Assembly (NCBI GenBank): GCA_024407775.1
Contig: JAKSVV010000003.1
Span: 1 to 40,671, forward strand
Length of the DNA stretch: 40,671 nt
Direction: 5' to 3'
Source: Clostridia bacterium
GTDB lineage: Bacteria; Bacillota; Clostridia; Lachnospirales; JAKSVV01
Shown here: positions 5,306 through 33,824 of the stretch, in pieces
Layout: every line of letters begins with the position of its first letter
How positions within the stretch are numbered: the stretch's first letter is position 1
The notes under the pieces: generated by a model
Databases searched by the model: none
What the model saw: the letters and a program-made list of their open reading frames with translations, nothing else
Told to the model about the DNA's origin: nothing
Made by a program: the position numbers and the translations under genes

Positions 5306-5998
5306 ATGAATATATTTTTAATAACAAAATTAATAGCATTCATAACTATGCTTATTGATCATATTGGTTTTAGTTTAGATTGTGAGTTAATGAGAATCAT
5401 AGGTAGAGTTAGTTTTCCTTTGTTTTGTTTACTTATAGGACAAGGTGTTAAGAAAACTAAAAAACCCAATGTTCAGCTTTTAAAACTATTAATATTCGGA
5501 TTAATATCTGAACCTATTTTTTATTTATATTTTAATAACAAAAATTTTAATGTTATGTTAGGATTTTTTGTTTTTGCATTAATTATATATATAAGTAATA
5601 AATTAAAATTAAATAATTTTAGTGAAATATTTTTAATTATAACAGCATCACTTTTTGAAGGATTATATTTCTTTGAATACGGATATATACTTCCTATTCT
5701 TTGTTATATATTTTATAAATGTGATAATAAATATTTATCAATTTTATATTTTAGTATAACAGAAATATTATATGCATTATATAAATATGCTTTGCTAGGT
5801 AATTTTAGAACATTCTTCACATTATGTGCAATCCCAGTAATATTCATGTATTACGTGGTTTGTGATAAATATAAAAAAGAAAATAAAACAATCCAAAGAC
5901 ATATTTATAAAAATAAATTTATGAATATTTTATCTAAAAATATTTTCTATATTTTATATCCGCTTCATCTTGGAATATTATATTTAATTTTTAAATAG
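5306..5998 (+). CDS. TraX family membrane protein
   Basis: TraX of the F plasmid acetylates the N-terminus of F pilin. Homologues are widespread in Firmicutes with unknown substrates. The 230 residues contain about eight hydrophobic segments. Family marks are the N-terminal ITMLIDHIGF, RIIGRVSFPLFCLLIGQG and LIFGLISEPIFYL, and the C-terminal LYPLHLGILYLIF. GGAG lies 11 bases before the ATG; another ATG at 5296 is out of frame. It runs toward the type IV secretion operon and shares a bidirectional terminator with it. A pilin substrate in that operon is possible, but only the family relationship and proximity suggest it. Confidence 0.8.
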   Translation: MNIFLITKLIAFITMLIDHIGFSLDCELMRIIGRVSFPLFCLLIGQGVKKTKKPNVQLLKLLIFGLISEPIFYLYFNNKNFNVMLGFFVFALIIYISNKLKLNNFSEIFLIITASLFEGLYFFEYGYILPILCYIFYKCDNKYLSILYFSITEILYALYKYALLGNFRTFFTLCAIPVIFMYYVVCDKYKKENKTIQRHIYKNKFMNILSKNIFYILYPLHLGILYLIFK

Positions 5999-6126: not shown

Positions 6127-6666
6127 TTAGTCAGCTGCTCCTAAGTTTTTTGAAAACTCTTCTTTTGCTTTATCGTATGCTACTTTATATTCTTGTTCAT
6201 CTTCTGTTAATTCATTTTCTCTTCCGATTTTTTCTACATCATCTAATAATAATGATGTTATTCTATATTCTTCATTTAATGTTACTCTTATTTTTCTATC
6301 AGCTATTTCTGAATGCATTTCTATAATAAATTGATCACCAATTTTATCTCCATTATCTATAATCCATTTCTTTTCATCAATGTAATTTGACATATAGTTT
6401 TCTACTTTATCTTTTACTTTATAACTTATATCATCATTACCTATCTTTTCAAAAAATAGATCCCAATGTGCAATCCTTGTAAATGCCTTGGTTACAAGAT
6501 ACTGTTTAGTTGGGGCAGCATCTTTTTCTTCTATTATTACATTCTTTACAGTTTTATGTGTATCATCATAAACCATCATAGCTACTATTACTATTAGTAC
6601 TATTATTATTAAAAAATATACTATATATTTTTTATTTTTCTTTTTAATTTTAAAACTACTACTCAT
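6127..6666 (-). CDS. Anchored extracytoplasmic protein, last gene of the T4SS operon
   Basis: This 179-residue protein is of unknown function. Residues 1-13 are lysine-rich and probably cytoplasmic, 14-34 form one membrane helix, and the rest is soluble and extracytoplasmic. The topology and size resemble VirB8-like or TcpC-like T4SS assembly proteins, but no motif proves this. It lies 14 bases after the stop of the lysozyme gene. The upstream sequence is A-rich without a clear AGGAGG, which suggests weak initiation or dependence on the preceding gene. A bidirectional terminator follows. Confidence 0.6.
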   Translation of the reverse strand: MSSSFKIKKKNKKYIVYFLIIIVLIVIVAMMVYDDTHKTVKNVIIEEKDAAPTKQYLVTKAFTRIAHWDLFFEKIGNDDISYKVKDKVENYMSNYIDEKKWIIDNGDKIGDQFIIEMHSEIADRKIRVTLNEEYRITSLLLDDVEKIGRENELTEDEQEYKVAYDKAKEEFSKNLGAAD

Positions 6667-6680
6667 ATATTTTTATTTTT

Positions 6681-8219
6681 CTAATTGTTTGAACTTATGC
6701 TTGAACTATTTAATGGTTCATATACATAAAATCCTCCAACTGTTTCTCCTTTTAAAATTTGAAATGTTATATCTTTTTCTATTAAATTATGATAGTTTCC
6801 TCCATCAGGATCTGCAACTTCAATATATCCATTTTCATCAAGACCAAGAAGTACTATGAAGTTACAATCTGCTGTTCTATTAAATATTCCGTATACTCCA
6901 CCTTCTTCTTTTGATCCTGTTACTGCAATTGCTTTCTTTCCTGCTTTTAGAGCTTCATATAATTTAGCTGTATCTTTTCCTATGGCTGTTGCTTTTAATC
7001 CAAACTTAGATACATCTGTCAGCATACCTAGTTTTGATCCACCACTTGTCATATACTCTGCCGTTTGTTCTGCTACTTTATCTGGTTCTGTTAATCTTAC
7101 TAAGTTAGTTGCTACCATAGCTATTGCTGTTGGACCTGCTCCTGTATCTCTTAGTTTATATCTACCGCAAAGAGTATCACCATAGTATTTCATGTTTCTA
7201 TACTCATAAGGAAGTATACCTTGGAAGAATAGTGTATCTGTATCACCATTACCACCTCCAACTTCAGGAGCATGTCTACCTGTCATTTTAAAATATACTC
7301 CTCTAGCATTTGCTGCTCTTTCATTTTCTACTGCATTACTTTGGTTTTGTGGTTTTTCATAGTTATGTAAGAAACAACATGCTGCATCGAATACACTGTT
7401 ATAACTATTCATAGTGTTTTTTAAACCTAAACTGTCATTATACATAACATCACATTGAAGTCCTATATCAGCTATAGAACAACCTCTTTGTTTTGCTCCA
7501 TCATATAGTTCTTCTTTATATGTGTGGTAAGTAAATTGTGCTATTCCGTAACCACCACCACCTGGTCCGTGATGTACGAAATCCTCTCTACTTATTTCAC
7601 CACTATCTACTTTATCGGTATATTCTTGGTTATATTGTTCTTGGTTACGTTGTCTATATGATCCTTGTACGTTATTTGGTCTACATCCTGATTCTGATAG
7701 TAAGTTACCTATGATACCAGAGGCTGCTATTTCTGTATAGCCATGAGCTAATAAATAATCCCAAACATATTGAACATATTCTGTTATAACAACAGACATG
7801 TTTTCACCACCCATATCCGTTCCTGGTGTATATCCTGGGTCTGGTGTTGCTCCTCCGCCACCACCATCATATTCTCTAAACTCACTAGCATAGTGAGCAG
7901 TATGTATTTCATTATTAACTAAATAATAAATATTTAATACGTTAGCTTCTTCTACTTTACCTAGTACGTAATCTAAGTCTACATACATTATAAATCTATC
8001 TTTATAATCTAATATTGCATTGTAAATTAAATCTTCATTACTTTCATCTTCAATGTAATACATCTTTTTAATGTAGTCATTAAATACTATCTTATCAGGT
8101 ATAGTAATATGTTCTGAGGCATATGAAACTTCTAATATGTTAATAAACATAAAAGTAGTTGCTAAAAATAATACTATTAACCTTTTTGATATGTTTAGTA
8201 ATATATTTTTATGTTTCAT
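6681..8219 (-). CDS. Secreted phage-tail-lysozyme-like protein with an inactive C39-like domain
   Basis: The 512-residue protein starts at ATG 8219. AAGGAGG is 8-9 bases upstream, and an in-frame GTG at 8228 falls inside that site and is rejected. A signal peptide ends near YAS (about 35). Residues about 145-300 resemble phage tail lysozyme: ASGIIGNLLSESG, with the likely catalytic Glu near 175, and GYGIAQFTY. Residues about 335-500 resemble a peptidase C39-like domain. However, the Cys position reads GAGPT instead of GCGPS/T, and the His position reads CNFIVLLG instead of GHFIVLLG, so peptidase activity is not expected. The protein would cut peptidoglycan glycan strands for the secretion apparatus, the VirB1 role. 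It is in the T4SS operon after the 158-aa gene. Confidence 0.82.
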   Translation of the reverse strand: MKHKNILLNISKRLIVLFLATTFMFINILEVSYASEHITIPDKIVFNDYIKKMYYIEDESNEDLIYNAILDYKDRFIMYVDLDYVLGKVEEANVLNIYYLVNNEIHTAHYASEFREYDGGGGGATPDPGYTPGTDMGGENMSVVITEYVQYVWDYLLAHGYTEIAASGIIGNLLSESGCRPNNVQGSYRQRNQEQYNQEYTDKVDSGEISREDFVHHGPGGGGYGIAQFTYHTYKEELYDGAKQRGCSIADIGLQCDVMYNDSLGLKNTMNSYNSVFDAACCFLHNYEKPQNQSNAVENERAANARGVYFKMTGRHAPEVGGGNGDTDTLFFQGILPYEYRNMKYYGDTLCGRYKLRDTGAGPTAIAMVATNLVRLTEPDKVAEQTAEYMTSGGSKLGMLTDVSKFGLKATAIGKDTAKLYEALKAGKKAIAVTGSKEEGGVYGIFNRTADCNFIVLLGLDENGYIEVADPDGGNYHNLIEKDITFQILKGETVGGFYVYEPLNSSSISSNN

Positions 8220-8269
8220 AATTTTCACCTCCTTATATAATTAGTATTTTTATTTTTATTTTTTGTTTT

Positions 8270-8746
8270 TTATTTTATAACTTTATTAGTTGGTTTCTTA
8301 CCTGTATAGTTTTCATTCTTATGAGTATAATTTACTTTCATACCTTCATTAGATTTTGTGATTGTAAAATATTCTTTATCATTACTTGCTACATCAAATG
8401 TCAATGAAAGAGCTGTTTCATTAAATTTTATATTAGTAATCCACCATTCTTGAATTTGTGTACCACTATTTTGTACTACGTTTGTTAAATAATCTTGAAA
8501 ATCTAATGCTCCTTTAGTATCTGTAAAGTATGGCATTATTTTATCAAAATCATATATTACTACACCATAATGATAATATGCATCTCCACCATCTATTTGT
8601 TCACTTGGAGTTTCAAATTTTGTTCTTGTTATTTTATTTTTATTTATTCTTATATTAGTCATTATTATTAATCCTATGATTACTAATATGATTAATACTA
8701 CTTTAAATATTGTTCTTTTTTCTATAAATACTCCAAATATATACAT
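8270..8746 (-). CDS. Small single-helix anchored protein in the T4SS operon
   Basis: This 158-residue protein is of unknown function. Residues about 14-31 (FKVVLIILVIIGLIIMT) form one membrane helix. The remaining 125 residues are polar and likely outside the membrane, with a lysine-rich end. I see no catalytic motif. The layout is like the 179-aa protein at the operon end, but sequence similarity between them is not convincing. The ATG has AAGGAG at good spacing. It sits between the two wall-degrading proteins, so a structural or assembly role in the apparatus is the natural guess. Confidence 0.6.
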   Translation of the reverse strand: MYIFGVFIEKRTIFKVVLIILVIIGLIIMTNIRINKNKITRTKFETPSEQIDGGDAYYHYGVVIYDFDKIMPYFTDTKGALDFQDYLTNVVQNSGTQIQEWWITNIKFNETALSLTFDVASNDKEYFTITKSNEGMKVNYTHKNENYTGKKPTNKVIK

Positions 8747-8833
8747 TAGTATTTCTCCTTAAGATTATTTAATATAAATTTATTTTTTCATTTAAATTTT
8801 ATTTTTTCATTTAAATTTTTTTGTTTTTTATTT

Positions 8834-11800
8834 TTATGATATTACCCAGAATGTTGCTTCTTCATTTCCTCTTTTTGTTGATGCATTAGCCATAATTGTA
8901 TCAATATCATATGTTTGTCCTGTTATTTTATATGTTCTATTTTTTGATCCTGGGTCATTTATTCTTACATTACCGTGTTCATCGATACCTGTAAGTAAGA
9001 TAAAGTGTCCACCACTTGTGAATAATCCAGGTCCACATATTTCTATGACTGGATATCCTGCTGATAAGGCGGCTACTACTGAATCTTTATCTGTTCTCAA
9101 TATTGGTGTTGCTGTTAATCCGTAGTGTGCTGCTCCTTGTGGAATTAAGTCCCAAGAAGATCCCTGTCCTACTCCATTTTTATCTATCTCGTAGTAACCA
9201 TTATCAGCAGACCATAATGCTACTTCTGGTGGTTCTACTGTTATTGATGTCATACCAGATACACACATTGCAAGACATGATGGTCCACATCCTGCTCTTG
9301 CTACTGTTGATATTGAGTATAGATCATTTGGATAATTAAATTGATAATAATATGGAAGATCAATATATCCTGGTGTGTAATTTCTTTCTCCTGGATCTTG
9401 ATATTCATGTCCACCACCAGCTCCTGGGTGATTACCTATTGATCCTGGTGAATCATCATAATTATATTCTTCTGTTAATAATTCTGTTTGTCCATAGAAA
9501 TCTTCTAGATATGTTTTTGTATCTAGTTGCATATTTGTATTTGTTTCCCATGGTTCAACTTCTGCTGTTACTTTACCCCAGTTAGTAAAACTTATTTGTG
9601 ATACTTTTTGATATTCATAACCTGCTGATTGACCTGCTACAAAAACTTCTCTTTGTTCCCAATGAGAACTATTTCTTGCTTCAGCTAACATTTCATCAAC
9701 ATTAGTTACTCTTTCTTCTTCTTTTTCATATTCGTAGTCAGCACTATTTAATACTGATCTAACTTTAACTGGTTTTAAGCTTGATTGTTTTATTAAAGAT
9801 TTTATTTCTGATTTAACTTCTGTTGTGCAGCTTCCATCCATATTTGTTCCTGATGGTTGCCATGGTCCATAAGTTACTGTTCCTTGACCTGATCCTGCTC
9901 CTCCAGCTTTCTTTGTTTCTATTACTGTTACTTCTTCAGTATAAGCATCAGATAATATTTTTTTATCTGGAACTTTTGCATAAGCTATATAATATTCTTC
10001 ATCTACATCTTTGAAGATATTATGGTTATGTGGATCGTATGGTCTATTTTCGTTATCAAGTGCTATGAACATATTTAAGAAGTTTTGATAACTTTCTACA
10101 TATGCTGCATAACTTTGTGATTGGTTTGGATGATGTCCAAGTTCTTCAGCCAATCTATCTATTTCTTCTTGTATTTCTTGTGCTGCTATTGGGTCTTCTA
10201 CATGTTGTAATTGTTCCTTTAGCATATTTCTTTTTGTTGTCCATATTTGAACTTGTTGTACTATTGAGAAGTCTAATGAACATTCAGGATTTTCTGTATA
10301 ATTTTTTATCTTCTTATCGAAGTTAGTATCATAAATATATCTACCTTCTTCATTAAAATATTCTTCATCATATAGTTCATAATTATAGAATGTTTTACCT
10401 GCAACTTTACTTGAGTATGTTGCATATTCAAATATAGGTATATGATATGCCAATGATTTTTTAATTTTCTTTCTTACATCTGCATTTTCAAATATGTTGT
10501 TTAAACTTCCATCATTATTAATACCATCAAGAGTTACTTCATGGTGAACAAGTTCTAGTCTTGCTCTAAATGGAAATTCAACATAAGCTAGGTCTATACC
10601 TCTATCACTTTCTGTTACGAATTCACTGTCTTCAAATTTTGGATCTTCAAGCCATTGATTGATTTCAGTTGTTGTAGTTCCTGTGATAGTTTTTGTATAC
10701 TTCATAGTTCTTTCCATAATAGTATGATAGTATGTAAGTTCTTTCATTACTTCACCAGTACTTACTCCATATCTATCTCTAAAATATGCTTCAACTTTAT
10801 TTTCTACTGGCTTACCATCTGGGTGAACTTTTGCTTCCTTAGATGAGTTAACAAATTGTTTATCAATTTTTTCTTTATATTTTAGATTCATCTCTTCATA
10901 ACGTTTAACCGCATCTGTTAGAGAATTATATTCTTCTTCTAATTCATTAAATTCTTCTAGTTTTCTTCTACGTTCCATTTCTGTCCAGTGATCAGTATCT
11001 TTATACTGTTCCCATTCATCTTTGGCTGCGAAGTATCTTTCGTCTAGTGAACCATCATAGTCATAATTAGGTTCCCAGTCTGTATAATTTCGTGCATAAC
11101 TAATTTGTTCTAGTAAGTTTAAAAGAACACCTTCGTCACTCAGTATTTGATAACCTGCTTCTTTATCGTATGATGCCATAGTAGCATTATCTTCACCAAA
11201 TACTTCAGTTTGACTTTCTAGGATATCTCTTTTTAATTTTCTAAAGTCACTATCAAGTGTCATAGCAGAATATGCTGCAGCTAGAGTTAATTCTTTTTTA
11301 ATCCAGTCTTTATAACTTTCTTTTCTGTGTTGGAATTCTCTTTCATTAGTCATGTCTTGTGTTTGAAGATTTTCTCTATACTTATTTTCATCACCATTAT
11401 TATCTTCATCATCAAATGCAAAAGCCATAAGAGCTATAATAACAATGACTGCAAATATTGTAAATGAGATAACTGGGTGTGAAATAATTAATTTAATTAC
11501 TGCATCTCCAACTTTTTTAATTATTTTTCTTATTAATTTATTTTTTCCTTGATTAGAATTCATTTTATTTTTAGAAACTTTATCAAGGATTTTATTTTTA
11601 GATCCATCAGTTGTTTTTACTGAAGCTGCTTCACCTTGTGCTGATTCTTCTTCATAATCACTTTCTGTATCTGCTTCAATAGTATCAGGTGTTCCTCCTT
11701 CGATAGCTGTGGCCATTTCTGCTGCTCTTTCATCTTGTTCAGCAGGATCTTCTTCACCACCATAGATTGTGTTACCACTAGATCCATCTGGATTTAAATT

Positions 11801-11908
11801 TTGAGGAATTGTTTTTCTTTTAATTCCTTGATAACTGCCTGTTCCATTTTTCTTATCTTTTTGTTGTGATCCTTGAGGAACAAATGATTCAGTATGAAAA
11901 TATCCCAT
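8834..11908 (-). CDS. Large anchored T4SS protein with an intact C39-like cysteine peptidase domain
   Basis: The 1024-residue protein starts at ATG 11908, preceded by AAGGAGGT. An in-frame GTG at 11917 overlaps that site and is rejected. Residues 1-138 are polar and cytoplasmic (acidic, Gly/Ser/Gln-rich), and 139-165 form one membrane helix (SHPVISFTIFAVIVIIALMA). Residues 170 to about 830 are a long extracytoplasmic region with charged helical stretches. The last 150 residues are a C39-like peptidase: AGCGPSCLAM (Cys near 878), GGHFILLTGIDEHG (His near 965) and INDPGS (Asp). All three catalytic positions are present. The domain may cut peptide cross-links or process a protein substrate. Intact here, it pairs with the degenerate copy in the lysozyme protein two genes downstream. 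Confidence 0.78.
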   Translation of the reverse strand: MGYFHTESFVPQGSQQKDKKNGTGSYQGIKRKTIPQNLNPDGSSGNTIYGGEEDPAEQDERAAEMATAIEGGTPDTIEADTESDYEEESAQGEAASVKTTDGSKNKILDKVSKNKMNSNQGKNKLIRKIIKKVGDAVIKLIISHPVISFTIFAVIVIIALMAFAFDDEDNNGDENKYRENLQTQDMTNEREFQHRKESYKDWIKKELTLAAAYSAMTLDSDFRKLKRDILESQTEVFGEDNATMASYDKEAGYQILSDEGVLLNLLEQISYARNYTDWEPNYDYDGSLDERYFAAKDEWEQYKDTDHWTEMERRRKLEEFNELEEEYNSLTDAVKRYEEMNLKYKEKIDKQFVNSSKEAKVHPDGKPVENKVEAYFRDRYGVSTGEVMKELTYYHTIMERTMKYTKTITGTTTTEINQWLEDPKFEDSEFVTESDRGIDLAYVEFPFRARLELVHHEVTLDGINNDGSLNNIFENADVRKKIKKSLAYHIPIFEYATYSSKVAGKTFYNYELYDEEYFNEEGRYIYDTNFDKKIKNYTENPECSLDFSIVQQVQIWTTKRNMLKEQLQHVEDPIAAQEIQEEIDRLAEELGHHPNQSQSYAAYVESYQNFLNMFIALDNENRPYDPHNHNIFKDVDEEYYIAYAKVPDKKILSDAYTEEVTVIETKKAGGAGSGQGTVTYGPWQPSGTNMDGSCTTEVKSEIKSLIKQSSLKPVKVRSVLNSADYEYEKEEERVTNVDEMLAEARNSSHWEQREVFVAGQSAGYEYQKVSQISFTNWGKVTAEVEPWETNTNMQLDTKTYLEDFYGQTELLTEEYNYDDSPGSIGNHPGAGGGHEYQDPGERNYTPGYIDLPYYYQFNYPNDLYSISTVARAGCGPSCLAMCVSGMTSITVEPPEVALWSADNGYYEIDKNGVGQGSSWDLIPQGAAHYGLTATPILRTDKDSVVAALSAGYPVIEICGPGLFTSGGHFILLTGIDEHGNVRINDPGSKNRTYKITGQTYDIDTIMANASTKRGNEEATFWVIS

Positions 11909-11983: not shown

Positions 11984-14230
11984 TTATAGTGGTTTTAATG
12001 GTTTAACTTTATCATATGTTTCATCAGATTCAATGTCCATAAGATCACTTAAACCTTTAATATTAATTTTAACTTTTATACCACCAGTTTCAGAACCATT
12101 AGTACTTGCTAATTGCTTAACCATTGTTTCTGCAATTTTCATTTGTAATGCTTCTAGTGTTTCTTTATTTGATCCATCAAAGAATGATGCATCTAGTACT
12201 TGAAGATTATGAAGTGCTTGTCCTAAATTTTTGATTGTTGCATTTCTTACTGCCATATCTTGTGACATATAATTTTCTGCAAAGTCTTTCATTTCTTTTT
12301 CTGCTAGCACTAAAGTATTATCTAATGTTTCTCTACTTTGTGCTTCATTTATCATTTCATCATTATCGCCTTCAAGTGTATTAATTAAATTAGATGCTGC
12401 TTCCGCTTCTTCTTCAGCATATGTTTGAGCTCTTAAATCTGCTTGTAGTTCACTTAAACTTCTTGCATCTTCTATTGGTGCTCCACCATAAGTTTCAGCA
12501 GCTTGTTGAACGTTACGATTATTTATACCTTCAACAATGTTATCTCTCATTTGTGAAATTTTTGTTTTCTTAGTTTTCTTTGCTACTTTATATCTATTAA
12601 TAGCATCAAAAATTCCACCTGTTTTTTCATCTATTTCTTTTCCTGCATCTATTGCATCTAAATATTCTTGTGCTTCAACTTGTTCGTCTTCATCAGACAT
12701 ATGATCTATTTGTGCTTGTATTCTATCTTTATCTTGTCTTAATTGTTTATCTGATTTACCTGGTGAGAATACTACTTGATTAAATCTTCCTCTACCTATT
12801 TGACTTAAATTATATACTCCTCTTGTAAATCCTTTTTGATGTTTTGGGTCAACTTTTGTTGCAAGTCCTCCAGCAAAATCTAATAAACTCTTTCCTTTAT
12901 TTTTAACTTTGTTACCCCATCCAAATACTCTTCCAACAATACTTGTTGCTGTACCTTCTTCATCGATACCTGCACCTGCTAGGAAGAATCCTTGTAATGA
13001 ATCTTTGACAAACTTAGCTAATTGAATTGATACTGTTGCTAATATCATACCGTAGATTGGATTTTCATCTTCGAATGAGAGTAATAATACTATTGTGAAT
13101 CCAACAGCATAACAGAATTGTGTTGCTATGTTTGTTAATAGTTCACCAAACCATAATGGGAAACTCTTAAATTTCTTACTTATTGCCCACGCTGCTATTA
13201 CTACTGGAGCTGATACAACAAGAATATCAATCATTAAATGTCTTACATAGAATGTTAAGAAGATATTCCACTTTGTTGTTATCCAGTAACAATCTGCTAT
13301 GGCTCCTAATACTCCTGGGAAGTCTATATCAATTTCAAATTTATTGTTATCAATATCAACTGGTACTACAGCCGTCATATAGTTAAATAAATAAATTAAT
13401 AACTTAACTATATATGGTACTGTAAGTAGTAATAATACTGCCCAGAATATTCTAAACCACGATTCTTTTACTTCAACTAATTTCTTTTCGTTACCTGCAT
13501 ATAGTACATATTCTATTGCTGTTTTAACGAATACAAATACGAGCATTAAGAATGCAATTGATACGAAACAGTTATAACCTGTCATAAGTCTTGACCATTC
13601 AACCCCAGTTTCATCGAATGGTTTATTCATTGAAACCGATCCGTCCGGGGCATATACATCATAGATGGCACCTATGTAGTCACAACCTTCTGTTGTCATA
13701 TCAATGTTCTTCATAAGAAGTTCTATAATACCGCTAACTATTGCATTGTATGCATTAATTAGCATTTCTATTAAATCTAATAATAAACTTTGTCCTGCTA
13801 TTCTATCATCATTATGATAGAATGTTTCTTCAATTTCAGCTTTACTTGTTTCTATTACTTCATAACTCTTATCAAGATATTCTATTACTATTCCAATAAG
13901 AGATATCATAATAATAAATATAATTATACCTGCTAAAATATTTTTAAGTGTAATTGCAGTTTTTACTTTTTGCTTTGGATCTGTTCCTCCAAGCATATGT
14001 CTTATACCTGCAAAAACAATTGCTATGAATATTAAAAGTAATAAAACTATTCTACCATAGAAAACTATTGTCGCTATTAAGTTTGTTGCTACACCAGTTT
14101 TATCTTCTAATATTTGATCATAGTAATCTAAGTCAGAAGCAAAGCTTAGTTGGTAAGTGTTAAGCACACTTACTAATGTGATCATTATCAATGTAAATAT
14201 TTTTGTTATTTTATTTTTTAATAAGTGCAC
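11984..14230 (-). CDS. VirB6/TrbL-like channel protein, short paralogue without ectodomain
   Basis: The 748-residue protein starts at GTG 14230, with GGGGTGAGG immediately upstream. A signal-like helix (about 8-30, ending SFAS) is followed by a two-helix hairpin (about 50-115) whose loop is GTDPKQKVK. The VirB6-type polytopic core (about 150-415) follows, with VPYIVKLLIYLFNYMTAVVP, LWFGELLTNIATQFCYAVG and FVKDSLQGF. The tail (415-748) is polar and helical. This is the fourth and smallest of four adjacent paralogues and lacks the large secreted N-terminal domain of the others, so it may represent the basic form. VirB6 proteins form the inner-membrane part of the T4SS channel. Confidence 0.82.
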   Translation of the reverse strand: MHLLKNKITKIFTLIMITLVSVLNTYQLSFASDLDYYDQILEDKTGVATNLIATIVFYGRIVLLLLIFIAIVFAGIRHMLGGTDPKQKVKTAITLKNILAGIIIFIIMISLIGIVIEYLDKSYEVIETSKAEIEETFYHNDDRIAGQSLLLDLIEMLINAYNAIVSGIIELLMKNIDMTTEGCDYIGAIYDVYAPDGSVSMNKPFDETGVEWSRLMTGYNCFVSIAFLMLVFVFVKTAIEYVLYAGNEKKLVEVKESWFRIFWAVLLLLTVPYIVKLLIYLFNYMTAVVPVDIDNNKFEIDIDFPGVLGAIADCYWITTKWNIFLTFYVRHLMIDILVVSAPVVIAAWAISKKFKSFPLWFGELLTNIATQFCYAVGFTIVLLLSFEDENPIYGMILATVSIQLAKFVKDSLQGFFLAGAGIDEEGTATSIVGRVFGWGNKVKNKGKSLLDFAGGLATKVDPKHQKGFTRGVYNLSQIGRGRFNQVVFSPGKSDKQLRQDKDRIQAQIDHMSDEDEQVEAQEYLDAIDAGKEIDEKTGGIFDAINRYKVAKKTKKTKISQMRDNIVEGINNRNVQQAAETYGGAPIEDARSLSELQADLRAQTYAEEEAEAASNLINTLEGDNDEMINEAQSRETLDNTLVLAEKEMKDFAENYMSQDMAVRNATIKNLGQALHNLQVLDASFFDGSNKETLEALQMKIAETMVKQLASTNGSETGGIKVKINIKGLSDLMDIESDETYDKVKPLKPL

Positions 14231-14322: not shown

Positions 14323-17300
14323 TTAATGTGTTGATCCAGGTTTTTTAGGAAGTTCTGTCATGTTATTTTTTATAACACCAGATGCCTTAAAATTATCTTG
14401 ACCTGATTGAGATTTTCCTTTATCAACATGTTTTCTTGCTATAATTTCTTCAGCATGTGCTTCGATATATTCTGCTGTTACTTCAGGATATACTTCTTGA
14501 ATCTTTTCAATGGCTTTATCTAATTCTTGTTTTCTTGATTCACCTTCGAATTTTGCTGATGCAAAATCTGATGATGAAAGATCTACATCAGTTCCGCCTT
14601 GAATAAATTCTGCAGCTGCAATCATTAATTCTTTTGCTATATCAGCTGCTGCATTTTGTTCATTACCATTTTTCTTTGATTCATATTGTACTACTAAATC
14701 ATCAATTGTTTTCTTGTCTGACTTTTTAGTTTCATTTGATTTAGCATTATCTTTATCTTTACCTTTATCTTTTTCTTGTTTTTCTATTTCTTCAAAGGCA
14801 TCATCATTAAAGTCTCCATCATCACCTATGAACATATCTGGAGCTTCGCCAGAATTTTCTGCTGCTACTGCTATAGATGCTACTCCAACATCACTTGGTC
14901 CGCTACTATATCCAGTAATTTGTCTTTGTGTTCCTTTTGGATTATTTTCATTATGAATAATTGTTTCACCTGGAGCCGGTTCTTCTTCACCGTTAAATGG
15001 ATTATGCATTTCTTCACCAAATTCAGTGATTTGTTCATCCATACCAAATCCAGGTCTTGAGTCATCAGCGAATCTCATATCAGTATCATCACCGAATCCC
15101 ATAGTTGTAGATGTTGGGTCGAAGTCTAATGAATGTTTTGCTTCTTCTTTTGTTACATCATACTTATAATCTTTTTCTGCTCTTGTGAAATCTTCAACTG
15201 CACTTTGTCTTATTTCTTGTAATTTTTGAGATAAGTTATCTTTAGTAATTGTTCCTCCTGATTGATTGATAACTTTTTGTTCATAACTTTGTGTTATGTT
15301 ACTCATCTTATCCATAAGATCAGAATCTATGCTTCCTGTTCTTACTTGTTCAAAGTTTGCTACTACTTGAATTAATTCTTTTGCTGCATCAAGTTTTGTT
15401 AAACTTGCTGAACCATCTTTATCAAGTAAGCTCTTAATTTTATCTAATGTATCATTAGCACTTAAATTTGTTCCTGTGACATCAATTTTCTTTCCGCTCT
15501 TAATACTGTCCATTGCAAGTGCTTGCATATTTGTTATATCTGTTACTACTTCTGCTGCATTTACAAATTTTATTCCACTTGCTTCTCTTATGATATCAGC
15601 TTCTTTATTTTGTGCTTCGTTACAAATCTTTTTATAACCAGATGCCCATCTTTGTGCTGCTGACATAGGTCCATAATTTACAGCATTAATTGCTCCTTGA
15701 AGAGCTTTATGTCCTTCAGCTTTTTGTGCTAGTCTTCCTAGCATATTATTTCCTTCACCATATGTTGCATCTGTAGCATATGTATTTTTCAAACCAGTGT
15801 ATGCATCATATCTATTTTGATTATATGCTACATCAGATTTTGCTTCGAAATAATCATTTACTTCGTCATAACCTGTTCCTGTCTTTTTATCAAATGGTGT
15901 TCCATTTTTCATTGCTTCTTCATATGCTTCTTTATATTCATTTACATCTTCATCACTAAGCCATGGTTTCATATTTGCATTAGCATCTCTTAATTTATCT
16001 TTTGATTTACTTAGTTCTTCCGCTGCTACTTTTGCTCTATTGTCATACATCTCTCTCTTTGTTCTCATATTTAATGGTTGTCCTGAAAGTAATGCTCCAA
16101 CGTTATGAACATTTCTTCCTGTTTTTGATACACCATCTTTGTCAAAGAATCTAGATGCTTTTATTAATGTTTTACCTGTTCCATTAACAGCTCTTTTTGC
16201 TGTTCCTTTTGCTTTTTTCATTCCTCCAATAATTCTATTCGCAATTTGATCTGCGTTTGGAGCTCCGCTCCAACGCTGAGCAAATCCTTGAAGAGATTTA
16301 CTAAAGAATTGTGCAAATCTAGGTAATAGAGTAATTGATATTAATACCATGAATGGTGATTGACCATCAAATGTTATTAATATTACTACTAACATTACTA
16401 ATGCATAACAGAACTGAATTGATACTTGTGCTAGAAGTTCTCCTATCCACATTTGGTATCCTCTAAATTTATCTGATATACATTTTACTGATAATACTAC
16501 TGGCGATGCTAGTAGTAAAACTCCCAGCATAATTTTTCTTACAAAGAATGTTATAAATATTCTTAATTTAATTAATGCAAAGTCTAAGTTACAAATCGAT
16601 CCTACGAAACCACTATCATCTGCACTAAATTCAAATGTTGCTTCTGTTCCGTTGATTGGTAACATTGCTGTTAAGTAATTAAATAATAAGAATAATAATC
16701 TTATTGCATAAGGTGCTACTACTACACCTAAAATTGTGAATGCGAAATTTTTAATTTGTTCTTTTGTTCTTGCTATCTTTTCATAGTTACCTGCATTTAA
16801 GATATAATCTCCTGCAAGTTTTACTACACCCATAGATAGAAGACAAATTGCTAGAACTGATAATAGTCTGTAACCAACCATTAATGTACTCCATTCAGTT
16901 GCACTAAATGGTAATAGGCTACTAACTTCTCCTGTTATATCATCATATACACCATAGATAAGATTCATAACATTTACTGATCTTCCTGGTTCTATTGATA
17001 ATCTTAATAATTCATCAACAAGCCAATTAGATAATTGTGCTACTAATCTTACTAGTTTACCTATTAAGTTAACAAGCCATCCTGTTTGGAATCTTGTCTT
17101 TGTTGTATAGAATGTTGGTCCTTGATATGTATCTGCAATATTTCCTAGTGCTACGAATGATTGTTCTGAGAATGCTAAAATTACTCCGAACATTGGTATA
17201 GCTACCGAGAATATAATTGCACCTGTTAAAATATTTTTTATTCTTGTTTTTATTAATACTCTCTTATCAACATCTGTTGCTGATTGAATTGATAAGATTG

Positions 17301-19065
17301 CTGTATATATTAATGCAAGTAATATTAAGAAAAGTAATATTGCTCTTCCATAGAAGAATAAATCTCTTAAGAATTCTTTCTTTTCTCTTTCTTTACCTGC
17401 ACCAAGTGTTGCTGTTAAATCTGCATTCATTAATAATCCAGATTGTTGTTGTTTTACTAATGATTTAAATTCTGGAACTTTCATTAACATTTCTGATAAT
17501 GGAAATTCTGGTGGATAATCTTCTCCTTGTGGTTCATCACCATCATGATATGTATCACTTACTTTAAATTTATCTGCACTAACTTTTCCAGAACCTTCAG
17601 CGTTGTCTTGTTTATTTGTACAAGTTAAGGCAAATGCTTCTTCGTTTTCATCTGCTAGTACGCTTGCTAATTCTGCTTTAGCTGCAGTTTGGTTATATCC
17701 ATCACCTTTCTTTTCACAGTCACGTGAACAACGAATTAAACAGAAAAATTGATGTGTATCTCTTGGATAACTATAACTAAAACTACCTGATTTACCTTTT
17801 TTAACTGAAACTATTAAATCAAAATAATCATCATCTTTTATATAACATTTTTTAAGTTGACTAAAGTCATAATAATAGCCTTCCTCGACTTTATCTTGTC
17901 CTTCTTTATATGCTACGATTAATGTACTATTTGGACTTGATGGTTCTATTATCCAATCTCCAACAGATAGGTTTTCATTTTGTCCATCAAAAATACTTTT
18001 AAGTTGATTGCAATCTAATCTAGCTGCTTCATGTAAACGACAGTTTCCAAGTGCTGTGTTTTCATAACCATAATATAATACAACTTCATTACCATCATTT
18101 GATTTTGATAATACTAATACTGGTTCATTAAAGTTTATTGCAGGAAGTGTATTGCTTATAATGCTATAATAATCATCAATAGTTTTTCCTGAAGTAGTGT
18201 AGAACATATTTAATCCTGCTGGTTCATCACCTACAATCCATGGTGTAACATATGCACCATCACCATCATGATTTATTTTTAAATTTCTTAATGTACTATT
18301 GTTATATTTAATTTCAGTATATGTATTATTAGCACTATCTACTGTTGCAAATTTATATTTTCTATAATCTCTACCTTGAGAATTTTGAACTATGACATTA
18401 ATTTGTGTTTCACCAATATCAAAAATTAATTTGAAGTTTGCATTTTCAACATCATCCTCTTCTTCCTCTTCTTCAGGTGTTTCTTCTTCCTCTTCAGTTA
18501 TTTTAGTTTTTGAAATAGTTACATAACTATGATCATTAAAATTTTTAACTAGTGGTATTAATAAATCTGAATCTTTAATATCGCCGCCTTTAGCTAGCAA
18601 TTTTTCTCTAGTTCTATCACTTTGAGATATTAGTCCACCTTCTTGAAGAATTCGAACAAAAAAGTCAACACAATTTATAACTTTTTCATCTCTTTCTGAT
18701 CCAGGTTTATCTTTGTACATGAAATATGCTTTAATGAATTTATCATAAACAGTTGAACCTGAAACTTCATCACCATCTACTACAACTTTTGATGATGATT
18801 TAAAATTAATTGCTGTATCACCATCCATTTCAAATTCAAAAGTTGCTTTTGCTGAAGCTGATGGTTCTACTTTTAGTGTGTAGTGATATCCTTCTTCAAA
18901 AAATCCTTCTTCTGCATAAACTTTATTAATGTCATTATCATTAAAATCTATCTTACTTGATAGATTATTTATAAGAGTAAATGAGAACACGAAAAGAAGA
19001 GTTACTAAAAGTAACCCTAGTTTTAAAGCTTTATTTTTTAAGTTAACCCTCTTTAATAGCTTCAT
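14323..19065 (-). CDS. Giant VirB6/TrbL-like protein with secreted N-terminal domain and 650-residue tail
   Basis: The protein has 1580 residues. A signal peptide or anchor covers about 10-35. An extracytoplasmic domain (about 40-560) holds an acidic Glu-rich stretch near 195-205 and several cysteines (for example CLIRCSRDCEKK). The pilin-like hairpin (about 565-645) has loop DVDKRVLIKTRIKNILTG. The VirB6 core (about 660-930) has VAPYAIRLLFLLFNYLTAML, MWIGELLAQVSIQFCYALVM and KSLQGF. The tail (930-1580) is long, charged and helical, and begins with a segment shared by the paralogues (FFDKDGVSKTGRNVHN). This is the longest tail of the four. It is unusually large for a Gram-positive VirB6-like protein. 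A role in channel formation is inferred from the core; no function can be given to the outer domain. Confidence 0.82.
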   Translation of the reverse strand: MKLLKRVNLKNKALKLGLLLVTLLFVFSFTLINNLSSKIDFNDNDINKVYAEEGFFEEGYHYTLKVEPSASAKATFEFEMDGDTAINFKSSSKVVVDGDEVSGSTVYDKFIKAYFMYKDKPGSERDEKVINCVDFFVRILQEGGLISQSDRTREKLLAKGGDIKDSDLLIPLVKNFNDHSYVTISKTKITEEEEETPEEEEEEDDVENANFKLIFDIGETQINVIVQNSQGRDYRKYKFATVDSANNTYTEIKYNNSTLRNLKINHDGDGAYVTPWIVGDEPAGLNMFYTTSGKTIDDYYSIISNTLPAINFNEPVLVLSKSNDGNEVVLYYGYENTALGNCRLHEAARLDCNQLKSIFDGQNENLSVGDWIIEPSSPNSTLIVAYKEGQDKVEEGYYYDFSQLKKCYIKDDDYFDLIVSVKKGKSGSFSYSYPRDTHQFFCLIRCSRDCEKKGDGYNQTAAKAELASVLADENEEAFALTCTNKQDNAEGSGKVSADKFKVSDTYHDGDEPQGEDYPPEFPLSEMLMKVPEFKSLVKQQQSGLLMNADLTATLGAGKEREKKEFLRDLFFYGRAILLFLILLALIYTAILSIQSATDVDKRVLIKTRIKNILTGAIIFSVAIPMFGVILAFSEQSFVALGNIADTYQGPTFYTTKTRFQTGWLVNLIGKLVRLVAQLSNWLVDELLRLSIEPGRSVNVMNLIYGVYDDITGEVSSLLPFSATEWSTLMVGYRLLSVLAICLLSMGVVKLAGDYILNAGNYEKIARTKEQIKNFAFTILGVVVAPYAIRLLFLLFNYLTAMLPINGTEATFEFSADDSGFVGSICNLDFALIKLRIFITFFVRKIMLGVLLLASPVVLSVKCISDKFRGYQMWIGELLAQVSIQFCYALVMLVVILITFDGQSPFMVLISITLLPRFAQFFSKSLQGFAQRWSGAPNADQIANRIIGGMKKAKGTAKRAVNGTGKTLIKASRFFDKDGVSKTGRNVHNVGALLSGQPLNMRTKREMYDNRAKVAAEELSKSKDKLRDANANMKPWLSDEDVNEYKEAYEEAMKNGTPFDKKTGTGYDEVNDYFEAKSDVAYNQNRYDAYTGLKNTYATDATYGEGNNMLGRLAQKAEGHKALQGAINAVNYGPMSAAQRWASGYKKICNEAQNKEADIIREASGIKFVNAAEVVTDITNMQALAMDSIKSGKKIDVTGTNLSANDTLDKIKSLLDKDGSASLTKLDAAKELIQVVANFEQVRTGSIDSDLMDKMSNITQSYEQKVINQSGGTITKDNLSQKLQEIRQSAVEDFTRAEKDYKYDVTKEEAKHSLDFDPTSTTMGFGDDTDMRFADDSRPGFGMDEQITEFGEEMHNPFNGEEEPAPGETIIHNENNPKGTQRQITGYSSGPSDVGVASIAVAAENSGEAPDMFIGDDGDFNDDAFEEIEKQEKDKGKDKDNAKSNETKKSDKKTIDDLVVQYESKKNGNEQNAAADIAKELMIAAAEFIQGGTDVDLSSSDFASAKFEGESRKQELDKAIEKIQEVYPEVTAEYIEAHAEEIIARKHVDKGKSQSGQDNFKASGVIKNNMTELPKKPGSTH

Positions 19066-28169: not shown

Positions 28170-29984
28170 CTATGTTCTAATGTAATCCCATTCAAAGTCA
28201 AATGGTGTAATTTGCATAAGTGTTGTATCTGTATCTGTTAATAAAATTCCTTGTCCTGGTGTAAAGTTACTCATCATTTCACGACAGTTACTTGATAGTA
28301 ATAAGTAATCAGCAACTTGTCTTGCTACCGCTGGGTCTTGTTTCATTACGAATTTAGTAGCACATTGGTTGATAACTGCTTTACCTGAATCATTAGCTAA
28401 GAATTCATTAATCATTTGAGATGCTATTACTAAACTGATTCTATATTTTCTTCCTCTACGAGCGATTTCTTCAAGGAATGTTGCAGCGTGTGGATAACGT
28501 GCGAATAACCATCCTTCATCGATAACAACCCTCTTTTTAAAGTTCTTATATTGCCAGTTACTAAACTTTGACCATATCCATGAAAGGATATTAACTGTCG
28601 CAAAGAATTTCATGAATTCATCAGTTAAGTTCTTTAAGTTAATACCAATTAATCTTGATCCTACATCGATTTCTGTTTGTCCATCGAACATTGATAATGA
28701 GTTTCCTTCTGTTAAGATCTTGATGATTTCACTAAGTTCTTCTGTCCATTCAATTTGAGATAGTTCATCTTGAAGTTCTGATAGAGTAGGCATGTCTTTT
28801 TTAACACGTCCTGTATAGAATTGTCCATCGATTTCTTCATGAGCTTCTCTATATAGTGATCTTGGATCTTTTGTGATACCACGTTTTGCGTAAAGTGATT
28901 TTACGATTTCTTCAACAGTAGTAATTTCTCTACCATGAAGTGGTTCTTCTCTGAACTTTTCACAGAACATTGATACCATTTCTCTTATTTCAGATAACTT
29001 ACCGTAAATATTAATTATTTGTTCACGTCCGTCATCTTCAACGTCTAATTCAAATGGATTTAAACCTGAGAATTCCCCAGATTTAATTTCCATGTATTGT
29101 CCTCCTAAGTATCTAACTAGTCCTTCATATTCGTTTTCAGGGTCTAGTACTATTACCCATTCACCGGCTGCTACACCACGGGCTAACATAGTTTTCATAG
29201 TAACAGATTTACCTGCCCCAGCCATACCGAATATAGCCATCATAGGGTTAGTTAGTAATGGTGGTCCAATGAAGTTATCGAAGAATATTGGTGAACCAGT
29301 ATATAAGTTGTTACCAAGGAATATTCCTCCTTCATGGCTCATTTCAGTATTACCTATTGGGATAACTGATGCGATAGCTCCTGTTGTAACGTTACGCATG
29401 TTATACATATACTTTATGTTTTCAATAGGTAATGTACTTATAAATGCTTTATCTTGTTCATAGATACATACTCTTGCTCTCATTGATTTACGAGCACATA
29501 TATCTTGTAACCAGTTTGTTTTTTCATTTAATTCTTCAATTGTACTTCCCCATAGGGTAATTAAAATTTGTAAGTTGGCCATACGGTCATTGTTTGTTTG
29601 AATCATTTGTCTCATTGATTCAAGGTCACTAACAGCTTGTCTTAATCCGTAATCAGCTATACCTGTTCTTTTTTCTTGTAAGATTCTGTTTGATTCAATT
29701 GTTGCTAGCTTACTTGTTATGATACGAATAACGTCACTGTTTTTAATGTGGTCAACGAATACTGAAATATTAATATCATTGATTTCAAATAAGTCATTTA
29801 AAAATCCTAAATACATTGTGTTAGGATATAAACTAATAACACACACTCTCGCATATTTATCTGCTCCTAGATAAATATAGTCTTTCCCATTTTCAAATAC
29901 ATCTGGTAATACTGCATCGAATTCTGTTTTACTTGTTAACATTGTGCTATTAATATAATCTAAATCAGAAACTTTCTTAGCCAT
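28170..29984 (-). CDS. virB4: VirB4-family T4SS ATPase
   Basis: VirB4 is the cytoplasmic ATPase that powers pilus and channel assembly in type IV secretion. The 604 residues have a VirB4-type N-terminal region (about 1-240) and a RecA-like motor domain. Walker A is GMAGAGKS (253-260), followed by VLDPENEYEGL (279-289) and SGLNPFEL (306-313). Walker B is RVVIDEGWLF (485-494), with RRGRKYRISLVIASQ (509-523) after it. It is compact compared with proteobacterial VirB4 (about 800 residues), as often in Gram-positive systems. The start overlaps the end of the preceding gene by 8 bases (ATGGCTAA) and is preceded by AGGAGG, so translation is coupled. No VirB11, VirD4 or relaxase gene is in the window. 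Confidence 0.95.
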   Translation of the reverse strand: MAKKVSDLDYINSTMLTSKTEFDAVLPDVFENGKDYIYLGADKYARVCVISLYPNTMYLGFLNDLFEINDINISVFVDHIKNSDVIRIITSKLATIESNRILQEKRTGIADYGLRQAVSDLESMRQMIQTNNDRMANLQILITLWGSTIEELNEKTNWLQDICARKSMRARVCIYEQDKAFISTLPIENIKYMYNMRNVTTGAIASVIPIGNTEMSHEGGIFLGNNLYTGSPIFFDNFIGPPLLTNPMMAIFGMAGAGKSVTMKTMLARGVAAGEWVIVLDPENEYEGLVRYLGGQYMEIKSGEFSGLNPFELDVEDDGREQIINIYGKLSEIREMVSMFCEKFREEPLHGREITTVEEIVKSLYAKRGITKDPRSLYREAHEEIDGQFYTGRVKKDMPTLSELQDELSQIEWTEELSEIIKILTEGNSLSMFDGQTEIDVGSRLIGINLKNLTDEFMKFFATVNILSWIWSKFSNWQYKNFKKRVVIDEGWLFARYPHAATFLEEIARRGRKYRISLVIASQMINEFLANDSGKAVINQCATKFVMKQDPAVARQVADYLLLSSNCREMMSNFTPGQGILLTDTDTTLMQITPFDFEWDYIRT

Positions 29985-30804: not shown

Positions 30805-31131
30805 CTACATCTTTCTATCTGTATATTTAATAACTCTTGGTTTACTCTTCCAAGTGAACAACTTTATTAGATATTTATCTGAATCCATTTCTTCTAGTTG
30901 GAAGAACGCAAGGAATATTCCTGCTGAAACAAATACTAGTGAAATGATAATTCTAATTGCTAGACTAAGTACGTTTATGTCTTCACCCTTCATATAGTTT
31001 TTATTAATAAGCAATAAATATATAGCTACGAAACTACCTGCAAGTAACCATACAAATTGTCTTAATGAAATGTAACCACCGATAATTTTATCTTCAGTAT
31101 GCATATCGAATGGTATGTGAAAATTTCTCAT
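30805..31131 (-). CDS. PrgI family T4SS membrane protein
   Basis: The protein has 108 residues from ATG 31131. An in-frame TTG at 31149 lies upstream, but GGGAGGAG (within 31141-31149) is the ribosome binding site for the ATG, so the short form is chosen. The family start is visible: FHIPFDMHTEDKIIGG followed by YISLRQFVWLLAG. Two membrane helices (about 28-45 and 58-80) and a short polar C-terminus follow. PrgI proteins are VirB3-like inner-membrane partners of VirB4 in Gram-positive conjugation systems. It heads the PrgI-TraC-VirB4 block, with a candidate promoter just upstream. Confidence 0.88.
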   Translation of the reverse strand: MRNFHIPFDMHTEDKIIGGYISLRQFVWLLAGSFVAIYLLLINKNYMKGEDINVLSLAIRIIISLVFVSAGIFLAFFQLEEMDSDKYLIKLFTWKSKPRVIKYTDRKM

Positions 31132-31160
31132 AATAAACACTCCTCCCAATATATAGTTCT

Positions 31161-31413: not shown

Positions 31414-31776
31414 TTAAAAATCTTCAGCAAGTCCCATAATAAATTCATATATTAAACCAGCACAGCCAAGGATAAATGCACCTACTGCAATAGGTACTAA
31501 TCCCATCATTAAGCCTGATCTTTCATCTGGTCTATTTCTCTTTATTATGATATTTACTCCTAAACATACTATTGAAATAAACATTAATACTGCTGATATT
31601 GGTTTTACTAAATCTTCAATATCTGGTTTAATTTTTTCAAAAGCTTCACCTAATTTTGCTGGATCACCTGGATCTGAAATATCTGATGCATAGCTTTTTG
31701 TATTTAATATAAATGTTAATGCTAACATTTCTAAGTATGTCATTTTATTTTTTAATATATCTAATAGTCTCTTCAC
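31414..31776 (-). CDS. VirB2/TrbC-like pilin candidate
   Basis: The 120-residue protein starts at GTG 31776 with AAGGAG seven bases upstream. The long leader peptide ends at KSYAS (about 31), as in VirB2/TrbC pilins. A short charged segment follows, then two membrane helices (about 59-79 and 88-113) joined by the basic loop KRNRPDERSG. This two-helix hairpin is the pilin fold of type IV secretion systems. The same design appears inside each of the four VirB6-like proteins downstream. The size and position just before PrgI fit the pilin subunit. The start codon GTG and a nearby terminator allow expression to differ from the rest of the system. Confidence 0.75.
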   Translation of the reverse strand: MKRLLDILKNKMTYLEMLALTFILNTKSYASDISDPGDPAKLGEAFEKIKPDIEDLVKPISAVLMFISIVCLGVNIIIKRNRPDERSGLMMGLVPIAVGAFILGCAGLIYEFIMGLAEDF

Positions 31777-31822: not shown

Positions 31823-32881
31823 TTAGTTTTCAAGAGTAAATCCTGCTGCTGTATATTGATTAAAGTTAAAGAAATTTCCTTTAACATTTAATACAGAATC
31901 TTCTCTATATATTACTAAGAATGTTATTCCTGTAAAGAAGTTAAAATCTTGTTTTACATTTTTCATTTCTTTTTGTCTTGCACTTTGTGGGTTAATGAAA
32001 TCCATCATAACTCCACCAGTGTAGTATGATATTTCTTTATTTAATGTGTCTATAATACATTGGTTTTTATCATATGTTGTAAGTACTCTATCCGCTGGAT
32101 TTATGAAGTTTGTTTCAACATTTGTTACTAATGTATCTGTTGCTTTATCATATTTTTTTGGTGAATGTAAATTTGAATCTGTTATTAACTGAGTAATATT
32201 TCTCCATGATGATGTATCACCAACTCTTCTTATTTTATCATTTAATGTGTTTATATAATAATATCCTCTTTGTGCTGTTGTTCCTTCACCTAGAGTTAAT
32301 ATTAAGTTTTCATCTTTACCATAAGTTATTACACCATTTTCATCTTCAGATTTATGTACATCTCTGAATGTAAAATATTTTGGTACTGATACATATTGTT
32401 CACGTTGTCCACTAAAGTAATCATCATAAGCTTGTGATGTACTAAAGTAATATTCACTCTTTAATTTTTTTGTATTAGCATCATCTGTATCTAATGTTGT
32501 TCCTGTTTCTGAATATGGTTTATTCCATACGACATATCTATCTGGATAGATAATCATTTCACAAACAATATTATTTCTTATTCTTGCAAATTGTTCTACG
32601 TTATTTATATTTTGGAATAATAGATCATCAAATTCTGTGAAGACTTTTGCTTCATCAAGTCTAACTCTCATGATTGGGTCATCACTATATGCATAACCTT
32701 GAGCAATTTCTTCAAGAGCGTAGTCACTATTTTCTACACCATCTTGTAAGCACTTAGTTGATAAGTACATTGCTTCATTTATTTTTTGTCTATTTGCGTG
32801 TAACATTCCCATAAATAAGGCAGGCATAAATACAAATACTACAAGCATTATCATGATAATTGATGTTGCACTTTGTTCCAT
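31823..32881 (-). CDS. Anchored extracytoplasmic protein, pseudopilin-like
   Basis: The 352-residue protein is not recognised. Residues 7-26 (SIIMIMLVVFVFMPALFMGM) form one N-terminal membrane helix preceded by only a few residues, as in TadE/pseudopilin-like proteins or DUF4320-type proteins found beside Gram-positive conjugation genes. The rest is a soluble, probably extracellular domain with many Tyr and Asn residues, ending in a hydrophobic/aromatic stretch. GGGAGGG precedes the ATG by six bases. It lies 16 bases after the 308-aa gene and 46 bases before the pilin gene, so all three form one transcript. A role as minor pilus component is inferred only from architecture and context. Confidence 0.55.
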   Translation of the reverse strand: MEQSATSIIMIMLVVFVFMPALFMGMLHANRQKINEAMYLSTKCLQDGVENSDYALEEIAQGYAYSDDPIMRVRLDEAKVFTEFDDLLFQNINNVEQFARIRNNIVCEMIIYPDRYVVWNKPYSETGTTLDTDDANTKKLKSEYYFSTSQAYDDYFSGQREQYVSVPKYFTFRDVHKSEDENGVITYGKDENLILTLGEGTTAQRGYYYINTLNDKIRRVGDTSSWRNITQLITDSNLHSPKKYDKATDTLVTNVETNFINPADRVLTTYDKNQCIIDTLNKEISYYTGGVMMDFINPQSARQKEMKNVKQDFNFFTGITFLVIYREDSVLNVKGNFFNFNQYTAAGFTLEN

Positions 32882-32897
32882 AATTACCCTCCCTTAA

Positions 32898-33824
32898 TTA
32901 TTCTGTTGTTTGATAATAACTAATTGTATCACCAGCGTCTTCGACACCTATGATTCCGGCATCATCCCATACTCTGTAATAGTTAACTGTTGCAAAGATA
33001 TGATATGTACCTACTGTATGAGTTCCACCAGTATTATTTGTTGCTTTAAATTCAGGTAACTCGTCATTATAACTTTGTGCTGGTGTTTCACCAGATTTTC
33101 CGTTAAAGACTCTTCCTGGAGCATTATCTTGTGTACTCATTTCTGTTATTAAACATACTTTATATGGTCTTGTAGGATCATTTATGTCGTTAATTACTTC
33201 ATAACCATTTACTAATTTATTTGCATCACGTCCTATCATTGATGTCTTTAATGATTTAATTCTAAAATCAACATAGTTATCTAACATACCCATGAATGGA
33301 GTAGTAATTAATTTACCATAAAGAGTTTGATTTTGGTCTTCTAGATAAATTGTAATTTGGTCTCCTTTATACATAGGTTTTGGATGTCTATCATTTGTTG
33401 TAATAATTCCCTTAGGGTCTATTGATTTACATCTTTCAATATACTCTGCTTCTGTTTCATGTTCATCAACAGCTGTTCCATCAGAATTATATCCCATTCC
33501 TCTAATAGGGAATGTTAAATTTTGAGCATTGATTACATCCTTAACAAAACTTGTTTCAAATACTCCAGCTGATTTCTTTTGTTGATATTTAATTGTTAAT
33601 TCATAGTTACAATCTTCACCAGCATAAGAATATATTTTTTCTTTTAAGTTGTTATAGATATCAACATTAAAAACACCTTGAGTTGATACAGTATCAACTG
33701 TTGAGTAGTTAATGTTATTAACATTTTCTTTTATACCTTCATGTAAGAAGTAAAAAGAAATTAGTAATAATAAATATGTTATGAATAAAATATTTATTAT
33801 TGTGTTAAGTAATTTTCCGTACAT
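32898..33824 (-). CDS. Anchored extracytoplasmic protein, first gene of the pilin transcript
   Basis: The 308-residue protein is not recognised. Residues about 7-26 (NTIINILFITYLLLLISFYF) form one membrane helix close to the N-terminus. The rest is polar and extracytoplasmic, with an aromatic C-terminal segment (TYHIFATVNYYRVWDD). It has the same layout as the 352-aa protein next to it and may be its partner. GAGAGGAAAA precedes the ATG. It follows an extended -10 promoter and a leader that contains a G+T7 repeat. It is likely a structural part of the surface apparatus. Confidence 0.55.
   Translation of the reverse strand: MYGKLLNTIINILFITYLLLLISFYFLHEGIKENVNNINYSTVDTVSTQGVFNVDIYNNLKEKIYSYAGEDCNYELTIKYQQKKSAGVFETSFVKDVINAQNLTFPIRGMGYNSDGTAVDEHETEAEYIERCKSIDPKGIITTNDRHPKPMYKGDQITIYLEDQNQTLYGKLITTPFMGMLDNYVDFRIKSLKTSMIGRDANKLVNGYEVINDINDPTRPYKVCLITEMSTQDNAPGRVFNGKSGETPAQSYNDELPEFKATNNTGGTHTVGTYHIFATVNYYRVWDDAGIIGVEDAGDTISYYQTTE

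Follow-up and report, generated by a model that had tools for sequence, protein, structure and literature searches.

The window analysed here, 40,671 nucleotides in length with a GC content of 29%, is contig C48 of a 1.43-Mb Clostridia bacterium MAG that is 70% complete. Judged from its genes, the minus strand carries an operon for a Gram-positive T4SS core made up of VirB2, VirB3, a split VirB4, and four VirB6-like proteins, in which a lysozyme protein and a membrane-anchored protein each carry a C39-like domain. The genes and domains considered are:

6127..6666, minus strand: small 179-aa TM protein, the last gene of the operon (ORF)
6681..8228, minus strand: secreted 515-aa protein, putative T4SS wall hydrolase (ORF; Pfam PF18013 and a sub-cut-off PF13529 match)
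6705..7214, minus strand: dead C39-like (papain-fold) domain of the 515-aa protein, residues ~339-508 (homology to the live C39, alignment, AlphaFold2, and Foldseek)
7284..7772, minus strand: Phage_lysozyme2 (muramidase) domain of the 515-aa protein, residues 153-315 (PF18013, E 2e-23)
8270..8746, minus strand: small 158-aa TM protein, between the genes of the 515-aa and 1027-aa proteins (blastp 4.6e-9, z 11, to the 137-aa protein of contig C43)
8834..11917, minus strand: 1027-aa protein (ORF; 1024 aa if counted from the ATG at 11908)
8951..9361, minus strand: live C39 domain of the 1027-aa protein (PF13529, E 3e-18, 67 bits, cut-off 24)
11984-14230, 14323-19065, 19179-23603, and 23805-28004, minus strand: four putative VirB6-like channel proteins (match to the 822-aa protein of contig C43)
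28170-29984, minus strand: VirB4 C-terminal ATPase gene (Pfam P-loop_TraG)
29977-30795, minus strand: VirB4 N-terminal part, a separate gene (NCBIfam VirB4_plasma)
30805..31149, minus strand: PrgI/VirB3 (PF12666, E 4.8e-11)
31414..31776, minus strand: VirB2/TrbC-like pilin (PF04956, E 4.7e-6, slightly under the cut-off)
31823..33824, minus strand: 352- and 308-aa proteins (homologues beside TadA/B/C-like genes in genomes G012, G043, and G019)

The split VirB4 matches the NCBIfam VirB4 CD1110 family with 243 bits. The four large proteins were assigned as probable VirB6-like proteins from their size, TM-rich middle, long cytosolic tail, and neighbourhood. All four match (E 1e-48 to 1e-88) the 822-aa VirB6-like protein of a second T4SS-type locus in the same genome, on contig C43, which also encodes proteins of 1034, 293, 137, and 320 aa, and one of the four has a weak T4SS_pilin match. 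A Pfam search with the 179-aa TM protein gave no family. Just upstream of the T4SS genes and on the same strand (33953-36370) is a gene for an N-acetylmuramoyl-L-alanine amidase of the AMIN/Amidase_3 type that also has a copper amine oxidase N-terminal-like domain, and a TraX-family protein (PF05857) adjoining the operon is encoded on the opposite strand at 5306-5998. The sole VirD4-type coupling protein found is encoded on contig C2 (15768-17039); its neighbours are housekeeping genes (yidC/mnmE/uvrC-like) and include no T4SS core gene. Unlike that of pCF10, the system described here is chromosomal, and a search of the 70% complete MAG for the relaxase PF03432 gave no match; with this result and housekeeping-type genes on both flanks, a reading of the operon as a mobile conjugative element is unsupported.

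From N- to C-terminus, the 515-aa protein consists of a signal peptide (read from the sequence), a linker, a Phage_lysozyme2 domain, and a degenerate C39-like domain, and it is probably exported. Its PF18013 score of 83.5 bits, against a Pfam cut-off of 28.2, makes it a member of that family. The lysozyme half is homologous to the muramidase of PrgK (blastp E 7e-8, 37%, in an alignment that spans the catalytic Glu), which itself matches PF18013 (E 2.6e-29) and thus belongs to the same Pfam family; it is also homologous to gp13 of phage phi29, a solved relative. The original prediction, that the lysozyme attached to the dead copy retains its ESG glutamate, was borne out: Glu179 (SE(179)SG; codon 7692-7694) is in place and occupies an invariant column of the lysozyme alignment. 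The domain is predicted to have muramidase activity. Being encoded within a T4SS operon together with VirB4, the protein falls with the wall hydrolases of the PrgK/VirB1 type.

The C-terminal domain of this protein is homologous to the live C39 domain of the 1027-aa protein (blastp E 1e-11, 30% identity over 151 columns). In the live domain, the active-site residues are Cys877 (AGC(877)GPS; 9287-9289), His971 (GGH(971)F; 9005-9007), and Asp988 (IND(988)P; 8954-8956). The residues aligned to these in the 515-aa protein are Ala364 (codon GCA at 7137-7139; context TGA(364)GPT), Asn456 (AAC at 6861-6863; DCN(456)F), and the retained Asp473 (GAT at 6810-6812; VAD(473)P). This confirms both the motifs quoted at the outset (AGCGPS, GGHF, and NDPG in the live copy; GAGPT, CNF, and ADPDGG in the second) and the claimed loss of Cys to Ala and of His to Asn with Asp kept. 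PF13529 aligns to residues 362-474 of the 515-aa protein with 16-18 bits, under the Pfam cut-off of 24, and with this score and the loss of Cys and His the copy does not count as an active C39-like peptidase.

An alignment of 64 C39 domains was drawn from ~780 order and class genomes, phage records, and viral contigs; its members were picked by similarity to the 515-aa protein and its neighbour and are not a census of the family. Within it, the other 63 copies all have Cys, 62 of the 62 readable others have His, Asp is kept in every domain with a readable position, and only the 515-aa copy has Ala and Asn. This copy also has Leu at the position after Gly-Ser that is W or H in 62 of 64 domains, and an insertion ahead of the His loop, and it keeps the invariant G, P, F, and Asp positions. 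A search of the dead domain for an alternative active-site Cys/His pair gave none, and the predicted loss stands: the other Cys and His residues are C354, C455, and H480, none of them at catalytic positions. Catalysis through these residues or by another mechanism might be suggested by C455 beside Asn456 and by cysteines near the His strand, but Cys is absent where 63 of 63 homologues have it and His is absent at the partner position, and we find this explanation hardly credible.

For structure prediction, a full-length alignment was dropped because MAFFT placed C39 pieces on the lysozyme. The AlphaFold2 model of the dead domain, for which the guiding alignment consisted of live homologues, is of modest confidence (pLDDT 70, pTM 0.74); for the live domain the values were 89.7 and 0.88. 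In Foldseek searches, the dead model matched papain-like peptidases including PeiR (a pseudomurein endoisopeptidase), PCAT1, and ComA with E 1e-3 to 9e-3, and the papain-like matches of the live model included the same three proteins. We regard the presence of a non-catalytic C39-like domain on a T4SS lysozyme as real and well supported.

The live domain lies at the C-terminus of the 1027-aa protein, behind an N-terminal part, one TM segment (read from sequence), and a long ectodomain with homology to the 1034-aa C43 protein (E 6e-19). In C43, the C39 domain has its own gene, which encodes the live, secreted 293-aa protein, whereas the C48 version forms one protein with the ectodomain; the C43 1034-aa protein has an SLT-like domain (weak, 14 bits) inserted in its ectodomain. 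These live domains, like other live clostridial C39_2 domains (PF13529), share fold, family, and neighbourhood with the dead copy and differ from it in having kept Cys, His, Asp, and the GS-(W/H) position.

The 158-aa TM protein encoded between the two genes is possibly a VirB8-like or docking part. One alternative reading of the dead domain is that it binds a protein partner, which could be a pilin, the 158-aa protein, the adjacent live C39, or some other component of the T4SS, and would in this way couple the lysozyme to the channel. In its favour, PrgK itself docks to PrgL, a VirB8-like protein, and needs more than its muramidase domain (PMC11323569). The C39-like domain of HlyB, which has Tyr for Cys, tethers the transported protein (PMC8277102) and offers a parallel, being a domain of C39 fold that acts through binding and lacks the catalytic Cys; it differs in being an N-terminal transporter domain that keeps His, tethers an unfolded substrate, and has no lysozyme attached. 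The small TM protein between the two genes is, moreover, conserved in C43. Against this, the dead domain is known from one sequence, and we consider a protein partner a doubtful explanation.

Relatives of the two-domain protein were sought in several collections. Scanning 84,980 genomes with the 515-aa protein as the single query gave no relative, matches to this query in 392 order and 391 class genomes were lysozyme-only or live-C39-only, and plasmid and phage records gave single-domain matches only. A search for the ectodomain family through a motif shared with C43 gave three stretches, none encoding a relative, and the motif search in viral contigs gave none. Orthologous T4SS loci surfaced only when VirB4 was used as the query. 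Identity of their VirB4 proteins to that of the window is 66% in three species belonging to one genus and 59% and 41% in the others, and all are split; the split VirB4 is conserved in orthologous loci of three other families. One of these six loci (G031) stops at a contig edge before the hydrolase region, and all five readable loci encode one or more intact domains that cut peptides or amides. The G012 locus encodes an SLT + NlpC/P60 protein (505 aa) with the NlpC/P60 motif residues present, G043 an SLT + M23 protein (457 aa) and also an ectodomain + Amidase_2 protein, G019 a VirB6-ectodomain-NlpC/P60 fusion, and G176 and G183 ectodomain + M23 proteins. Like the window, G012 and G043 have a glycan and peptide cutter near an ectodomain protein in the orthologous slot; these slot proteins differ from the 515-aa protein in their unrelated domains and intact active sites. 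Since the hydrolase genes differ among orthologous loci, the hydrolase set is often swapped. None of the orthologous loci showed a recognisable dead peptidase, and the searches run found no homologue of the dead domain; the combination of lysozyme and dead C39 in one protein is so far known from one genome. In viral sequences, IMGVR contigs of 63 kb and 231 kb encode a phage protein with two tandem C39 domains, both with Cys and His, and Phage_lysozyme2. The endolysin-like phage protein of IMGVR_UViG_3300006217_000768 has the same order of Phage_lysozyme2 and C39 as the 515-aa protein and differs in that CGPT is kept; its contig ends before the His position.

In three of the orthologous loci (G012:C6 18660-45206, G043:C69, and G019:C22), the T4SS core (VirB2, VirB3, split VirB4, and VirB6) and Tad pilus genes form one locus in one orientation. 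The Tad genes there, identified by mostly weak matches, are CpaE/ParA-like, RcpC-like, a TadA-like T2SSE ATPase, TadB/TadC-like, and small pilins. The 308- and 352-aa proteins of the window belong to this Tad part, and the other Tad genes of its own genome are on contigs C67 and C119. A literature search found no description of a T4SS-core/Tad-pilus composite.

At 1392-2354 of C43, in the slot syntenic with the gene of the lysozyme protein, is a gene for a secreted, NlpC/P60-looking protein of 320 aa in which Cys is replaced by Ser (YGIDCSG to YGMTSTN) and His by Tyr (HIG to YVG), with weak statistics. A Pfam search gave no NlpC/P60 match for this protein, and the support from a two-sequence profile (E 5e-4 among 21 proteins) and from hhalign (E 0.03) is weak. 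We treat its possible identity as an NlpC/P60 pseudo-peptidase as a weak lead. A broader scenario holds that the hydrolase slot was twice made a pseudo-peptidase in this lineage (C39 with Ala/Asn; NlpC/P60 with Ser/Tyr), each time next to a live C39, and that the two parts would form a gate that opens the wall only when docked, in a chromosomal machine composed of T4SS and Tad pilus. This scenario is speculative, and we think it distinctly improbable.

Three C39 domains were found in the genome, namely the dead and live copies of C48 and the live copy of C43. The nearest relative of the live C48 domain is the live C43 domain, to which it is joined in the tree (94/96), whereas the dead domain sits alone and unplaced on a branch of 3.13 changes per column, versus 0.72 for each live own-genome paralogue. 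A clade of the three own-genome copies was recovered in 42% of bootstrap trees and is not rejected by the AU test (p 0.27). The suggestion that the two copies in the operon are a subfunctionalised pair stood in part, in that a dead and a live papain-like C39 do lie in one operon and the lysozyme Glu is kept. For the origin of the pair, duplication within the operon followed by subfunctionalisation is a plausible account, although the live copy joins that of C43 and the dead copy is on a long branch. Over 152 codons, at 29% GC, the dead domain has no stop or frameshift, and 152 codons stayed open in 5 of 200,000 simulations using the dinucleotides of the window. The reading frame has been maintained with much replacement, as expected of a fold kept without catalysis, which is not by itself proof of function. 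Strain-specific decay, the caveat attached to the original prediction, would be indicated by homologues with intact residues; no homologue with the architecture of the 515-aa protein was found in the orthologous T4SS loci, and a copy that has diverged so far along its branch with its frame unbroken is unlikely to have decayed very recently.

The same branch length (3.13 vs 0.72) bears on the possibility that the domain is a relic, in which case the live C39 would have taken over peptide cutting and the lysozyme-attached peptidase would be drifting as a mere tail with no present function. Such drift would also fit the loss of several conserved positions and the free swapping of hydrolase domains among orthologous loci, but it sits poorly with a domain that has no stop or frameshift in a 29% GC genome, a papain-like fold that is still recognisable, and the retained invariant G, P, F, and Asp positions. 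We consider a relic rather unlikely.

The reading we favour, with a probability of roughly 0.55, is that the 515-aa protein is a VirB1/PrgK-type muramidase whose attached peptidase has turned into a non-catalytic wall-binding or gating module, while the live C39 neighbour cuts. The lysozyme domain would open a path for the channel through the cell wall by cutting glycan strands. The dead C39 domain would keep the papain fold, be unable to cleave, and either hold the enzyme on peptidoglycan stem peptides or keep the lysozyme cleft blocked until assembly of the machine is complete; the peptide cutter would be the live C39 of the neighbouring 1027-aa protein, which is anchored in the membrane. 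With a live peptidase in the operon, its loss from the 515-aa protein need not deprive the machine. A retained module is supported by the frame, which is open despite about 4x the divergence of the live paralogues, and by the model, which is still papain-like. C43 shows a similar pattern, with a live C39 (293 aa) and the 320-aa possible NlpC/P60 protein without Cys/His (weak). Counting against this reading are the absence of a recognised dead peptidase from the orthologous loci, the modest confidence of the model, and the fact that the inactive domains of PrgK are LytM and CHAP and not C39.

Tethering or gating of the lysozyme is the most likely role of the dead domain by analogy with PrgK, whose degenerate LytM and CHAP domains, which are without detectable activity, down-regulate the muramidase (PMC11323569); we infer that the dead domain may bind wall peptides. 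Like PrgK, which is encoded on pCF10 in Enterococcus faecalis, the 515-aa protein joins a PF18013 lysozyme of a Gram-positive T4SS to a peptidase-type domain that is probably inactive, has its papain-like domain C-terminal to the lysozyme, and is accompanied by a VirB4 of the CD1110 type. Unlike PrgK, which has a degenerate LytM domain and a CHAP domain that keeps Cys and His, the 515-aa protein has no LytM, and its C-terminal domain is C39-like with both residues lost.

Because one studied system already offers a similar dead domain with a regulatory role, the arrangement described here is an interesting variation and not a new principle. It bears on how Gram-positive T4SSs spare the donor from their wall hydrolases, for which PrgK is a case of demonstrated down-regulation by domains without activity (PMC11323569). 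A second PrgK-like case, in which a lysozyme of that family carries a domain with both catalytic residues lost and a live paralogue lies next to it, would turn the pseudo-peptidase gate into a general and testable idea, and comparing the dead copy with the live one offers a natural way to tell wall binding and wall cutting apart.
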